Source: Parvibaculaceae bacterium (lineage in GTDB: Bacteria; Pseudomonadota; Alphaproteobacteria; Parvibaculales; Parvibaculaceae). Taken from it: DNA of 34,016 nt. The notes under the pieces were generated by a model. It saw nothing but the letters and a program-made list of their open reading frames with translations, was not told the origin of the DNA and made no database searches. Below are positions 587-6,951 of the stretch, in pieces. The stretch lies in NCBI GenBank assembly GCA_029209985.1, contig JARGNZ010000029.1:1-34016 (forward strand), given 5' to 3'. Numbering within the stretch: position 1 is the stretch's first letter; every line of letters starts with the position of its first letter. A program made the translations under genes and the position numbers.

Positions 587-1117
587 TTATTGGGAGCTGT
601 TGTCGTGCTCTATGTGGCGCGCCTCTTCTTTGGGAAGTTCCTGAATATCTCCAATATCGAGAACCGGCGATGCGTCAATTCCCTCCGCCTCCAGCATTAA
701 AGAGATACGTTCGAGGACGGATTTAATCATGAGCCGTTCCCAATCCTCCAAATGGAAAAATGCGTTGGCAAACTTCTCCTGAAGAAGTTTCGGGGCCTCC
801 TTGAGCACGGCGGCGCCTTTTTCTGTCAGGCGAACTTCCACACTTCTACGGTCATGTCCGCTTCTTTTGCGTGTGACGAGTTCTGTGGTTTCCAACTTTT
901 CAAGGATAGAGGTAACCGTTGCTTGCTTGAGAGAAATCTCTTCGCAGATTCTCTTTTGCGATACCTGGGGGTTGGCTTCAACTGTTTGAAGAACCAAAAT
1001 CTGAGATGTCGTGAGCCCGGTTGAGCGGGCCAACCTTTGGGACTGCAGGTCTGTCGCGCGAATGATCCGCCGAAGGGACGTCAATACATCTTCAGCATCC
1101 TTGTTGAAATCACTCAT
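587..1117 (-). CDS. ectR: MarR-family transcriptional regulator of the ectoine cluster (EctR-like)
   Basis: A 176-residue MarR-type winged-helix protein. The central part has the helix-turn-helix and wing pattern (SQKRICEEISLKQATVTSIL, then LVTRKRSGHDRRSVEVRLTEKG), flanked by helices typical of MarR dimerisation regions. I chose the ATG at 1115-1117 because AGAAGG lies 8 nt upstream; a GTG at 1148-1150 would add 11 residues but has no ribosome site. The gene is divergent from ectA. MarR regulators called EctR or EctR1 are known beside ectoine operons and usually repress them under low salt. The shared inverted repeat in the intergenic region is a natural operator candidate. The MarR family is certain; control of ectABC is inferred from position. 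Confidence 0.85.
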   Translation of the reverse strand: MSDFNKDAEDVLTSLRRIIRATDLQSQRLARSTGLTTSQILVLQTVEANPQVSQKRICEEISLKQATVTSILEKLETTELVTRKRSGHDRRSVEVRLTEKGAAVLKEAPKLLQEKFANAFFHLEDWERLMIKSVLERISLMLEAEGIDASPVLDIGDIQELPKEEARHIEHDNSSQ

Positions 1118-1205: not shown

Positions 1206-1340
1206 CGTTATAAAATAGTTCGATATTCGAATGGTTTGCGATGTCTGTTTCGCTTAAATAGGCGAGTTTTTGGCCTGTTGACAGGCTTTGGGATATATGC
1301 GACTTCATTGGCGCATCAAATATCGAACTATTTTATAACG
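1206..1340. promoter_or_regulatory. Divergent ectR/ectA promoter-operator region with a long inverted repeat
   Basis: A perfect 22-bp arm at 1206-1227 is repeated as its reverse complement at 1319-1340, and similarity continues imperfectly for about 10-13 bp on the outer side of each arm. Read outward, both genes are therefore preceded by the same element, containing ATCGAACTATTTTATAACG. It includes an A/T-rich TATTTTATAA core that could serve as a -10 region. The left arm also adjoins the small palindrome TTCGA-TAT-TCGAA at 1219-1231. The right arm ends 32 nt before the ectA start; the left arm lies 88 nt before the ectR start. A TTGACA occurs between the arms at 1278-1283 but lacks a good -10 at normal spacing. 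The arrangement fits one regulator controlling both promoters. Confidence 0.6.
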
Positions 1341-1372: not shown

Positions 1373-1900
1373 GTGACTGGCAATGTGGACTTTTCCGGTG
1401 ATGTTGTCTTCAGGCCACCTAAATCTAATGAAGGCTTGCAGGTGCACGACCTTATCCATGCGGGAGGCGGCCTGGATGCCAATTCGCTCTACTGCAACGT
1501 GCTCATGGCACACCATTTTGCGGCCACAAGTGCTGTTGCGGTAAGTCGCGATGACATTGTGGGATTCGTAACCGCGTATAGGCCCCCAGACCGCGATGAC
1601 ACTTTGTTTGTCTGGCAGGTAGGTGTTGATGGGGCTTGGCGCGGCAAGGCGATTGCCAGAAGGTTGCTTCTGTCAATTTTGGATAGAGACAGTTGCCAGT
1701 CAGTTCAGTATTTGACGGCGACTATTACGCCGACAAATGAAGCGTCGTGGGCCTTGTTTGAAAGTGCCGCGCAAGCTCTGAATACATCGTTGTCTAAGGC
1801 CCCGCTTTTTGACTCTGAGATGCATTTTGGCGGGCGGCACGAAAGTGAAACCGAAATAAAAATTGGGCCGATTTCGCGGCCTACGATTTGCAAAGCCTAA
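1373..1900 (+). CDS. ectA: L-2,4-diaminobutyrate N-gamma-acetyltransferase
   Basis: EctA acetylates L-2,4-diaminobutyrate with acetyl-CoA to N-gamma-acetyl-diaminobutyrate, the second step of ectoine synthesis. The 175-residue protein is a GNAT-fold enzyme of normal EctA length. It begins with the family's FRPP region (13-16), contains LDANSLYCNVLMAHHF (34-49), and has the acetyl-CoA loop VGVDGAWRGKAIARRL at about 84-99. The C-terminal stretch ending in LFDSEMHF is also typical. The start is GTG at 1373, with GAGG about 8 nt upstream. ectB begins 10 nt after the stop, with its ribosome site overlapping the end of ectA, so the genes are one transcript. The identification rests on sequence pattern and on the neighbouring ectB and ectC. 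Confidence 0.95.
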   Translation: MTGNVDFSGDVVFRPPKSNEGLQVHDLIHAGGGLDANSLYCNVLMAHHFAATSAVAVSRDDIVGFVTAYRPPDRDDTLFVWQVGVDGAWRGKAIARRLLLSILDRDSCQSVQYLTATITPTNEASWALFESAAQALNTSLSKAPLFDSEMHFGGRHESETEIKIGPISRPTICKA

Positions 1901-1910
1901 GGAGGGCCGT

Positions 1911-3206
1911 GTGGATATCAATGATACCGCAGTCTTCGACAAATTAGAAAGTAACGTTCGCAGCTACTGCCGTGGGAACTCTGCGGTTTTTGAGCGCGCT
2001 GAGGGGGCGACGCTTTTTGATGAGAATGGCGAAGCCTATCTCGATTTTCTAGCAGGAGCTGGTAGCCTCAATTATGGGCACAACCATCCTGCGCTGAGAG
2101 ACCAGTTGGTACAGTACATCACGGATGGTGGGGTAACCCACAGTCTGGACTTTCATACAGCTGCGAAGAGGGGTTTTCTGGAGACTTTTCAGGAAATCAT
2201 TCTGCAGCCGCGGCAGATGAATTATGTCGCGCAATTTACAGGGCCAACCGGGGCAAATGCTGTTGAAGCAGCTCTCAAGCTCGCTAGGAAAGTTACAGGG
2301 CGTGCGTCCGTTGTTGCGTTTACGAACGGTTTTCACGGTGTCACGCTTGGGGCGCTTGCGGTAACCGGCAATCAACATCATCGAGGTGGTGCCGGGGTGC
2401 CCTTGGACAATGTCCAACGCATGCCGTTTGCCGGTTATCTTGACGCTGACATGGATACGCTTGCCTATTTTGAGAAAGCGCTCTCCGATAAGAGTAGCGG
2501 TGTCGACCTGCCTGCATGTGTCATCGTCGAAACTGTTCAGGGCGAAGGGGGGCTTAATGTGGCCTCTGGAACCTGGATGAGACGTTTACAGAAGATTTGC
2601 CGCGCCCACTCAATCCTGCTGGTTGTCGATGACATTCAGGCCGGATGCGGTCGGACGGGAACATTCTTCTCGTTTGAGGGCATGGGCGTTGAGCCAGATA
2701 TGGTGACTTTGTCGAAGTCTTTGAGCGGTTATGGGTTGCCCTTGGCTGTTACCTTGATCCGCCCTGAACTCGACTGTTGGTTGCCGGGGGAACACAATGG
2801 AACCTTCCGTGGTTTCAATCATGCTTTTGTCACAGCCAAAACCGCTTTGGACGTGTTCTGGAAGGATGAGCAGTTCCCAACCGAAATCCAAGAAAAGTCC
2901 AAATTTGTTCAGGAATTCATTACACGCATGTGCCGTGATTTGTCACCCTTGAAGCTTAGCGCGAAGGGGAGAGGGCTTATGCAGGGGCTTTCTTTCGATC
3001 GCCCCGAGCTGGCATCGGCAACTGCGGAATTGGCCAGAGAACGAAATCTCGTGATCGAAACGGCAGGGCCAAATGATGAGGTTCTGAAATTCTTCCCCCC
3101 CCTTACAATTACGTTCGATGAACTTGCTGCGGGGCTGGAAATTGTCGAGGACTCACTGCGTGAGGTTCTGGATGAAAAAATTATATCACCTATTGCGGCG
3201 GAGTAG
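1911..3206 (+). CDS. ectB: Diaminobutyrate-2-oxoglutarate transaminase
   Basis: EctB is the PLP enzyme that converts aspartate semialdehyde to L-2,4-diaminobutyrate with glutamate as amino donor, the first committed step to ectoine. The 431-residue protein has the class-III aminotransferase pattern: [17 protein letters not shown] (110-126), [13 protein letters not shown] (238-250) with Asp240 for the pyridine nitrogen, and the Schiff-base Lys269 in [12 protein letters not shown]. The start is GTG at 1911, because AAGGAGG ends 5 nt upstream and the protein then begins where EctB proteins do ([20 protein letters not shown]). The frame is open further upstream inside ectA, but a start there would add an atypical arginine-rich tail. 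It lies between ectA and ectC with almost no spacing. Confidence 0.96.
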
Positions 3207-3208
3207 AC

Positions 3209-3604
3209 ATGATTATTCGTAAATTGAGTGAAAGCGATAAGGCCGGTCGTTTGATCCGGTCTGCTGGCTGGGAAAGCAATCGGCTCATTTTGAAAAACGA
3301 TGGGATGGGTTTTTCCTTCCACCTGACGACCATCTATGCGGGTGCAGAACTTGAGATGCATTACAAGAACCACTTGGAGTCTGTCTATTGCATCAGCGGG
3401 GAAGGATCGATCGAAGATTTGGCCACGGGCGAAATTCACGAGATTGAGGCTGGAACATTATACGCACTCAACGAACATGACAGGCATATTCTTCGTGGCA
3501 AGACGGAGATGTTGATGGCATGTACGTTTAACCCCCCTCTGTCGGGCGAGGAAGTCCACGACGAAACAGGCGCCTATCCTCTTCAGCGCGAGGAAGCGGT
3601 TTAA
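3209..3604 (+). CDS. ectC: L-ectoine synthase
   Basis: EctC closes N-gamma-acetyl-diaminobutyrate to ectoine by removing water. It is a 131-residue cupin of the usual length. Family motifs are clear: [20 protein letters not shown] (43-62), then [12 protein letters not shown] and [20 protein letters not shown]. Metal ligands described for ectoine synthases correspond to Glu57, Tyr85 and His93 here, all present. The start ATG lies 2 nt after the ectB stop, preceded by GGCGGAG inside the end of ectB, so translation is probably coupled. No ectoine hydroxylase gene (ectD) or dedicated aspartokinase gene is visible downstream, so this cluster should make ectoine, not 5-hydroxyectoine, unless ectD lies elsewhere. 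Confidence 0.97.
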
Positions 3605-3605
3605 T

Positions 3606-3725
3606 ATGTCTGGGCCTGAAGGTTTGACCCTGGCGGCCCTGCTGCGTATCCACCAATTACGTCCCGAAAAGATGCTGCCATTTATTCAGAGTGGGATGCG
3701 GGGCGTCCCTTTCGAAACAAACTGA
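3606..3725 (+). CDS. Short unrecognised ORF directly after ectC, perhaps a gene remnant
   Basis: A 39-codon ORF starts 1 nt after the ectC stop, with GAGGAAG 9 nt upstream, so it could be translated by coupling. It begins MSGPEGLTLAALLRIHQLRP and ends VPFETN before TGA. The same frame is open again after this single TGA up to a TAG around 3885, and part of it (GLTVFEETKICELVLNAISS) looks protein-like, but I recognise no family in any frame of 3606-3870. It could be a small operon protein or the debris of a lost gene between ectC and the symporter. Nothing in it resembles ectD. Confidence 0.25.
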   Translation: MSGPEGLTLAALLRIHQLRPEKMLPFIQSGMRGVPFETN

Positions 3726-3870: not shown

Positions 3871-5271
3871 ATGACGGTTATTAGTTTTCTAGGTTTTTTG
3901 TTTCTGTTTCTTCTTGTTGGCGTTGCGTCGTTTCTGCGTTCCAGAAATGCCAAGGAAGATTATTACCTAGCGAGTAAAGACGTCTCACCTATGTTTGTCG
4001 GTCTGTCTGCCGTCGCGACAAACAATAGCGGTTATATGTTCATCGGGGTCATTGGCTACACCTACGCCGTTGGGCTTGCGTCAATCTGGCTTATGATTGG
4101 CTGGATTGCAGGTGATTTTCTTGCCTCGCTCTATGTTCACCGACAACTCAGAATTTCGACGGAAAAAACTGGAGAGCTTACGTTCTCCGGTGTTCTCTCA
4201 AGGTGGGACGGTGGTAACTACAAGTATGTGAGATTGATTGCAGCGCTGATTACGGTTGTCTTTCTGGGGGCATATGCGGCTGCACAACTGAGTGCCGGGG
4301 GTAAAGCTCTTCATGCCATTTTCGGGTGGCCGGAAGCGAGCGGTGCTGTGCTTGCAGCGGTTGCAGTCGCAATCTACTGCCTTGCGGGAGGTCTGCGCGC
4401 GTCCATCTGGACAGACGTGGCGCAGTCTTTTGTGATGTTATTTGCGATGGGGCTTTTGCTTGTGGTCGCAATATTGGGACTTGGTGGGCCTGCTAGAGCT
4501 GTTTCTATGATGGGAGAAGTTGATGGGTTTCTCGATCTATTTCCATCCGACCTGGTTGTCCCCGGTTTGTCTGGCATGGCTCTCTTTGTTATTGGTTGGA
4601 TGTTTGCGGGGCTTAGTGTCATTGGTCAGCCACACATTATGGTTCGTTTTATGACGCTGGACCGTCCCGAGCACATCTCGCGCGCACGCGGATGGTACTA
4701 TTCCTTTTTTCTTGCCTTCTATCTCATGGCGACAGGTGTCGGGATGCTATCCCGGATTTATCTTCCAGAGCTGAGTGGTCTGGACCCAGAACTTGCTTTA
4801 CCAACAATGGCGCAGAAACTGCTGCCTCCCGTTTTTGTCGGGTTAATTTTGGCCGGCATCTTCGCGGCGACAATGTCGACGGCAGATTCACTCATATTGA
4901 GCTGCTCATCTGCACTTACCCACGATCTTCTTCCAAAGGGATTGGAGACGACGTTACAGATAAAAGTGGCCACCATTCTTGTGGCAGCTTTTGCGTTGGC
5001 TATTGCGCTGTCGGGAAATCAAAGTGTCTTCAGTCTTGTCATCTTGGCGTGGTCCGTTCTGGCATCGGCTTTCGCGCCCTTATTGATTATGTATGCAATC
5101 GGTAAGCGGGTGTCAGAGGGGCAGGCAATTGTGATGATGCTCACTGGGGTCAGCGTCGCCTTGTTGTGGCGATATTTGGAGTGGCATAATTCGATCTATG
5201 AAGGAATGCCAGGAATACTTGCAGGGTTGTTGATGTTCTATTTATATCGGTTACTGGCTGCGCGTCGGTAG
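3871..5271 (+). CDS. Sodium/solute symporter (SSS family, PutP-like), probable compatible-solute importer
   Basis: A 466-residue polytopic membrane protein with hydrophobic segments along its whole length. It carries the SSS hallmarks: an N-terminal DYYLASKDVSPMFVGLSAVA region, a conserved NNSGY turn near residue 51, and the ATMSTADSLILSCSSALTHD segment at about 333-352, where Ser/Thr side chains form the sodium site in this family. The start ATG at 3871 follows GAAAGAAG. It lies on the ectABC strand 266 nt after ectC with no terminator visible between, so it may be the last gene of that transcript. SSS transporters import proline, betaines and other solutes, and this family has been noted in ectoine clusters. 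Import or recapture of ectoine or another osmolyte is the best guess; the substrate cannot be read from sequence. Confidence 0.85.
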   Translation: MTVISFLGFLFLFLLVGVASFLRSRNAKEDYYLASKDVSPMFVGLSAVATNNSGYMFIGVIGYTYAVGLASIWLMIGWIAGDFLASLYVHRQLRISTEKTGELTFSGVLSRWDGGNYKYVRLIAALITVVFLGAYAAAQLSAGGKALHAIFGWPEASGAVLAAVAVAIYCLAGGLRASIWTDVAQSFVMLFAMGLLLVVAILGLGGPARAVSMMGEVDGFLDLFPSDLVVPGLSGMALFVIGWMFAGLSVIGQPHIMVRFMTLDRPEHISRARGWYYSFFLAFYLMATGVGMLSRIYLPELSGLDPELALPTMAQKLLPPVFVGLILAGIFAATMSTADSLILSCSSALTHDLLPKGLETTLQIKVATILVAAFALAIALSGNQSVFSLVILAWSVLASAFAPLLIMYAIGKRVSEGQAIVMMLTGVSVALLWRYLEWHNSIYEGMPGILAGLLMFYLYRLLAARR

Positions 5272-6921: not shown

Positions 6922-6951
6922 GGGAAGCTGGTGGCACGCCACCAGCTTCCC
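6922..6951. promoter_or_regulatory. Strong hairpin between receptor and reductase genes
   Basis: Perfect 13-bp arms GGGAAGCTGGTGG (6922-6934) and its complement (6939-6951) enclose a 4-nt loop. On the plus strand the hairpin is followed by TATTTTT, so it resembles a terminator in that direction. However, the adjacent genes run on the minus strand, where no U-tract follows. In the operon mRNA it could therefore be a processing or stability element lowering reductase expression relative to the receptor, or a partial terminator. Confidence 0.55.

Follow-up and report, generated by a model that had tools for sequence, protein, structure and literature searches.

Paired predicted operators for the MarR-family regulator EctR in the ectR-ectA spacer of a Parvibaculaceae bacterium and in related spacers

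The spacer between the divergent ectR and ectA genes of a Parvibaculaceae bacterium carries a long inverted repeat, the arms of which probably serve the adjacent MarR regulator EctR as a pair of operators, one placed before ectR and the other before ectABC. The repeat lies in the window, by which we mean the whole 34,016-nucleotide stretch of DNA analysed here. Comparison of ectR-ectA spacers across many loci reveals the motif, shows that it occurs in pairs and locates it in the window; the same comparison supports one predicted site per gene as a widespread architecture of these spacers.

Results

The ectR-ectA spacer contains an exact inverted repeat

The regulator encoded beside the spacer possesses a MarR winged-helix domain (both Pfam models scoring above cut-off) and its gene is adjacent to ectABC. 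The flanking genes are as follows.

587 to 1114, minus strand: ectR, MarR-family regulator of 175 amino acids (Pfam MarR_2, 1.9e-13; MarR, 9.1e-12)
1373 to 1900, plus strand: ectA, with a GTG start at 1373 (TIGR02406, 174 bits against a cut-off of 120.6)
1911 to 3206, plus strand: ectB (TIGR02407, 628 bits against a cut-off of 552, scored on the open reading frame 1863-3206)
3209 to 3604, plus strand: ectC (Pfam Ectoine_synth, 4.1e-57)

The ectR start was placed at the ATG at 1114; a longer alternative from a GTG at 1150 is possible, and the window EctR aligns with the EctR of its relatives from the N-terminus onward. The ectB frame is open from 1863, and its GTG start at 1911, read from the sequence, is preceded by GGAGG. 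Downstream of ectC, on the same strand, lies a sodium:solute symporter gene (3871-5271). This is possibly an ectoine importer, since excerpts of PMC13342039 mention SSS-type importers (EctI) that adjoin ect genes elsewhere. A short frame at 3606-3723, after ectC and ahead of the symporter gene, could be either a small gene or a remnant.

Sequence reading and exact-repeat computation agree that the arms of the repeat are exact reverse complements over 25 bp, with 91 bp between them. Repeat finding extended both arms imperfectly.

1203 to 1227, no strand: left arm, with an imperfect extension over 1186-1230
1319 to 1343, no strand: right arm, with an imperfect extension over 1316-1360

The first-pass annotation had described 22-bp arms (1206-1227 and 1319-1340) as exact reverse complements 91 bp apart, with weaker similarity continuing outwards. 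The description is true, exactness reaching 3 bp further than had been claimed, and the outward similarity is present as 45 nt at 82% identity. When the bases of the spacer were shuffled 200 times, exact inverted repeats reached 12 bp at most, against 25 bp in the real sequence. The 34-kb window held one other exact inverted pair of 14-mers at most 600 bp apart, a short hairpin at 6922/6938. When the source genome (3.09 Mb, 50 contigs) was searched with the 20-base arm core at up to three mismatches, no place besides the two arms was found, and the whole spacer had no second match at E ≤ 0.001 in the same genome. Between the arms, on the plus strand, is a terminator-like stem-loop followed by a T run (1249-1266); a second, weak terminator-like stem-loop is found at 1168-1185 (two found against 0.6 expected in shuffles).

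A palindromic motif is enriched in ectR-ectA spacers

Relatives of the window regulator were present in 7 of 40 genomes of its family. The EctR proteins of five relatives (40 to 46% identical to that of the window) were aligned with the window protein, and a QATVT stretch, which we take to be the recognition helix, is invariant across the six. This alignment served as the query in a scan of contigs, from which the best 80 of 114 relatives were kept, and of 385 class genomes, 27 of which matched. A tblastn analysis of 116 loci (the window, L025-L104, L106-L134 and L017-L022) gave an ectA match in 72. We left out six loci (L025, L026, L049, L050, L055 and L060) before the motif search because their genomes were already represented by L017-L022; in all 66 remaining loci, window included, ectA is divergent from ectR. 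L071 equals L125 in sequence, and both stay among these 66 and among the 87 spacers referred to below. Non-redundant sets were drawn by 6-mer overlap, comprising 56 of the 66 spacers for held-out scoring and 50 for training.

Enrichment analysis of short gapped palindromes placed TTCA-N5-TGAA, in 16 of the 66 spacers (0.35 expected), and TTCG-N5-CGAA, in 13 (0.55 expected), among the most enriched, together with AT-rich words such as ATTT-N9-AAAT (17 against 0.5) and AGAT-N5-ATCT (13 against 0.35). A palindromic EM model trained on the 50 non-redundant spacers, all from outside the window's family, produced a 25-bp palindrome, ataTAtTTCg-N5-cGAAaTAtat, of 15.6 bits. The seed of the model was one site from L020, a member of the window's family, even when that family was excluded from training.

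Each arm of the window holds a predicted site

Applied to the window, the matrix trained outside its family identified predicted operators on both sides of the spacer.

1213 to 1237, no strand: predicted EctR operator, ectR side, centre 1225, AAATAGTTCGATATTCGAATGGTTT, 16.3 bits
1331 to 1355, no strand: predicted EctR operator, ectA side, best register, centre 1343, 11.1 bits
1309 to 1333, no strand: weaker site, ectA side, centre 1321, 5.7 bits, window rank 9

Centres 1225 and 1343 ranked first and third among the 33,992 window positions; a further position, centre 1203, reached 3.1 bits (window rank 28). In a genome sample of 396,520 positions, 1, 14 and 139 positions equalled or beat centres 1225, 1343 and 1321, respectively; N was taken as A in this sample, and a listed background match (L166, 12.4 bits) is therefore an artefact. 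Of 20,000 spacer permutations, 0.18% had a best score equal to or above the observed one, and none gave both top scores together. A degenerate form of the motif was uninformative as a guide to a wider regulon: it matched the genome at 11 places, fewer than the 42 matched by its reversed counterpart, and at one mismatch those 11 do not include the left site of the window.

The strong register differs between the arms. Centre 1321 is the mirror of the left operator with one half degenerate, and the best register of the right arm lies 22 bp from this mirror position, such that the exact arm spans the centre of one predicted site to approximately the centre of another. The arms are thus not simply one operator mirrored. 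The earlier proposal that the same mirrored element precedes both genes holds in that each arm contains a predicted site, and fails in that the registers are not equivalent (1225 and 1343, the mirror position scoring so much lower). A few other spacers (L037, L068, L110 and L112) carry sites in tandem, 14-23 bp from one another, and each window arm could therefore take two dimers.

Paired sites are widespread in ectR-ectA spacers and absent from reversed spacers

Each spacer was scored with itself and its look-alikes held out. At least two sites of at least 10 bits were present in 51 of the 56 non-redundant spacers, and at least one in all 56. Reversed spacers yielded one site in 4 of 56 and two in none, with no pairs in 66 when all spacers were reversed; 330 dinucleotide shuffles gave 35 with one site and none with two. 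A later set of 64 loci comprised 23 divergent pairs, 2 loci with a non-divergent ectA and 39 without ectA. With the matrix frozen, at least two sites were found in 16 and at least one in 20 of these 23 later spacers, which are partly kin of the first set (L141 and L144 to L124; L177-L179 to L107), and their reversed sequences gave no pairs (0/23). The later spacers L142 and L143 have the same sequence as L088 and L078; without two duplicates the counts are 14 and 18 of 21. Both were removed from the 87-spacer, spacing, promoter, arm and tree analyses. Typically, one of the sites is closer to ectR and another closer to ectA, whereas L037 has a tandem pair only; two sites at least 60 bp apart were found in 71 of the 87 spacers. 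The expectation of a shared element before each gene is thereby borne out as an EctR-type predicted operator in both the first and the later spacers, and the window arms hold matching sites.

As a control, we scored the 300 bp preceding each of 83 related MarR genes whose examined loci lacked ectA. No site was found in 63, one in 17 and two in 3; the same regions reversed gave none in 78, one in 4 and two in 1. Comparison of 51/56 with 3/83 gives a Fisher p of 2e-28, a value that ignores shared ancestry. One of the three two-site controls, L059, falls in the main ectR clade of the tree described below. At least one of the 83 controls, L191, adjoins a gene that by eye was named as a betaine/choline-type, BCCT-like transporter, a neighbourhood that may recall CosR-type regulators.

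The window regulator occupies a long branch

In a tree of 167 rows, which left out L130, L131 and L134 and in which EctR1 was absent as a named row, the window regulator has a long branch and groups next to 30 MarR proteins that have no ectA nearby (95/95). Placement with the main ectR side (85 rows, picked after the tree had been viewed) was not rejected (AU p 0.30). Given the long branch and this unrejected grouping, the window regulator could be either an EctR that has diverged or a separately recruited protein. The window motif had no recurring match within 300 bp upstream of the 30 tree-nearest MarR genes, where the search gave one TTC-N5-GAA site, in L041, and 6 of the 30 regions showed single 9-mers in common. 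A different palindrome, TGAAA-N6-TTTCA, occurs in 6 of the 30 upstream regions (L027-L048 and others; 0 expected); that MarR group may use it as its operator.

Among 87 spacers, only the window shows long exact arms

Six loci of the window's family have ectR beside ectA. Two sites of at least 10 bits were found in L019, L020 and L021, and a single such site in L017, L018 and L022, where the second-best scores were 7.3, 7.3 and 9.8 bits. L017 and L018 are the nearest ectA-linked relatives of the window by identity, and in their spacers a direct repeat, ATATAGATTGA, is present twice, 13 bp apart, in place of the inverted arms. A same-genus genome (70% complete) had no match to ectC and none to the window regulator. 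When exact inverted repeats whose arms lie at least 40 bp apart were compared across the 87 spacers, the window reached 25 bp and none of the other 86 exceeded 12 bp. The first-pass annotation had named conservation in close relatives as a check, and the answer is divided: the exact arms are not conserved, whilst paired sites are present in three of the six family loci and a single site, at the threshold used, in the other three.

The same annotation had ascribed so long an exact duplication to recent origin or strong selection. Selection for a palindromic operator fails to explain a 25-bp arm, because the arm is mostly one half-site plus a one-sided flank. As exact arms of this length were seen in no other spacer compared, recent copying reads better than strong selection, and we retain the former. 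The likeliest origin of the exact arms would be a local copying event, such as template switching, in which one operator together with its flanking sequence was written over the other. Quasipalindrome template switching is a known form of copying between inverted sites, as described in portions of PMC7202029 and PMC8604942.

Promoter candidates and their relation to the predicted operators

Promoters were scored with simple sigma70 weights, which are approximations.

1331 to 1336, plus strand: candidate ectA -10, TTTTAT, 7.2 bits by the simple sigma70 score, with a candidate -35, TTGGCG, at 1308-1313
1210 to 1215, minus strand: mirror of the candidate ectA -10

The ectA -10 candidate is located inside the right arm with a spacing of TTGGCG-17-TTTTAT, and a weaker ectA candidate lies between the arms (TTGGCC-18-TATATG, 1270-1299, 6.4 bits). 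No good candidate for an ectR promoter was found at the left arm by the same score, and a consensus promoter scan found none (0.7 expected). The TATTTTATAA core, previously regarded as the heart of a promoter/operator element, is in part the AT-rich flank of the predicted operator; as a candidate promoter it is a mediocre match for ectA and a poor one for ectR.

Of the 31 EctR clusters, 10 have their best-scoring ectA promoter candidate 54-58 bp upstream from the ectA-side site, which places it between the predicted operators. A second class of promoters, in which 8-12 bp separate the operator and the -10 (peaks at +8, +12, -8 and -10), was not trusted because the TATA-like flank of the operator creates it on both sides; the 54-58 bp class alone seems unaffected. 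By reading, the ectA-side palindrome of L019, L020 and L021, and of Sphingopyxis loci including L076, has a Shine-Dalgarno-like GGAGG or GGAG in its variable centre (CTTCGGAGGACGAAG in L021 and TTTCAGGAGATGAAA in L076). The operator and the ribosome-binding sequence may therefore overlap.

Discussion

Three alternatives to paired operators were weighed. The arms might be no more than duplicated core promoters, with the motif match mirroring AT-rich promoter sequence; they do contain TTTTAT and TATTTT, including the -10-like match at 1331-1336. We regard this as very improbable, given that reversed spacers of identical composition give no pairs in either the first or the later set and that the promoter scores are mediocre for ectA and poor for ectR. 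That the long arms are kept for an RNA or single-stranded DNA hairpin (an attenuator or cruciform) rather than for protein binding is very improbable. Region 1186-1372 folds far better as RNA than shuffled sequences (z -7.6), but good folding is expected of any such repeat, comparable arms are found in none of the 86 other spacers, and a transcript starting within or beyond either arm and running toward its gene would miss one arm. Finally, inverted arms some 91 bp apart resemble the terminal repeats of a small mobile element (MITE) lying between the genes. A MITE or other repeated element was rejected on finding a single copy in the 3.09-Mb genome, and the arms hold a motif that is present in the ectR-ectA spacers of other families; this reading can be given almost no credence.

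A further possibility refines the paired-operator reading without excluding it, namely that the pair acts jointly by looping the DNA, in the manner of GalR at gal, with EctR dimers of the ectR and ectA sides touching and so trapping promoter DNA between them. We hold this to be possible but doubtful. The 71 inter-site distances crowd near 107, 118, 131, 140 and 153 bp; among the 31 EctR clusters (75% identity), phasing in periods of 10.2-11.5 exceeds jitter (p 0.004), and an ectA promoter between the operators in the 10 clusters noted above would suit such a loop. The available parts of PMC4693257 place the gal operators at -60.5 and +53.5, 113 bp apart, with repression dependent on helical phase. 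Against this, the best period is 11.2-11.7 bp, longer than that of B-DNA, with R only about 0.4 at 10.5; p is 0.047 at 70% clustering and <0.001 at 80%, and the result therefore depends on the pooling of relatives. Moreover, several of the later-spacer distances (124, 134, 147 and 157 bp) fall, by eye, between the crowded values, there is no clear promoter between the window's own sites, and MarR proteins normally act as dimers. The broadest version is one that we put forward only as an unlikely speculation: across Alphaproteobacteria, EctR would be a gal-like looping switch with helically phased operators, the ectA-side operator often lying over the ribosome-binding site, and the two operators of the window would have been homogenised by copying.

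Returning to paired EctR operators as the preferred reading, three known systems offer comparison. EctR1 of Methylomicrobium alcaliphilum 20Z is, in the available sections of the review PMC5924519, likewise a MarR regulator encoded beside ect genes with an AT-rich, pseudo-palindromic operator, in that case two 8-bp half-sites 2 bp apart placed over the -10 of the distal ect promoter. Set against this description of EctR1, the sites found here differ in forming an odd-centred palindrome with a TTC(G/A)-N5-(C/T)GAA core and in usually numbering two per spacer. CosR of Vibrio, 51% identical to EctR1, is also a MarR repressor and acts on ectABC-asp, according to extracts of PMC7876524, in which it is a global regulator of compatible-solute genes; here, the analysis covered the paired sites at one locus. 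GalR at E. coli gal resembles the window in its two operators approximately 100-115 bp apart flanking promoters (PMC4693257, in part), yet GalR belongs to an unrelated protein family, and for EctR looping is suggested by spacing alone. Among the literature matches listed, none described an EctR operator from Alphaproteobacteria or sites in pairs, and a term search for an operator or binding site in PMC8759281 gave none.

We infer that EctR would be the binder, that it would repress both genes and that salt would relieve this repression. An EctR dimer on each operator would repress both transcription units when ectoine is not needed, the outcome being a self-limiting repressor and a shut ectABC operon; release of EctR under osmotic stress would then open both units. 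Weighing against this reading are the moderate score of the right-arm site and its shift from the mirror register, the lone site of at least 10 bits in L017, L018 and L022, the position of the window regulator in the tree and the lack of genome-wide enrichment of the degenerate motif. The retrieved sections of PMC5924519 report that EctR1 represses ect and controls its own gene in M. alcaliphilum, that ect is still salt-induced in an ectR mutant of that organism, and that ectR of Methylophaga thalassica is not autoregulated. It follows that neither a salt response nor autoregulation is safe to assume. The cues sensed by EctR are stated as not known in the same sections.

The near-perfect mirror copy was seen only in the window, whilst one predicted site per side is common elsewhere. 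The exact arms may offer a natural case of locally copied regulatory sites. The two-site design is not described, in the sections of PMC5924519 available, for the EctR with a mapped operator. The paired predicted operators present in most ectR-ectA spacers would provide concrete sites that bear on the salt switching of ect genes.
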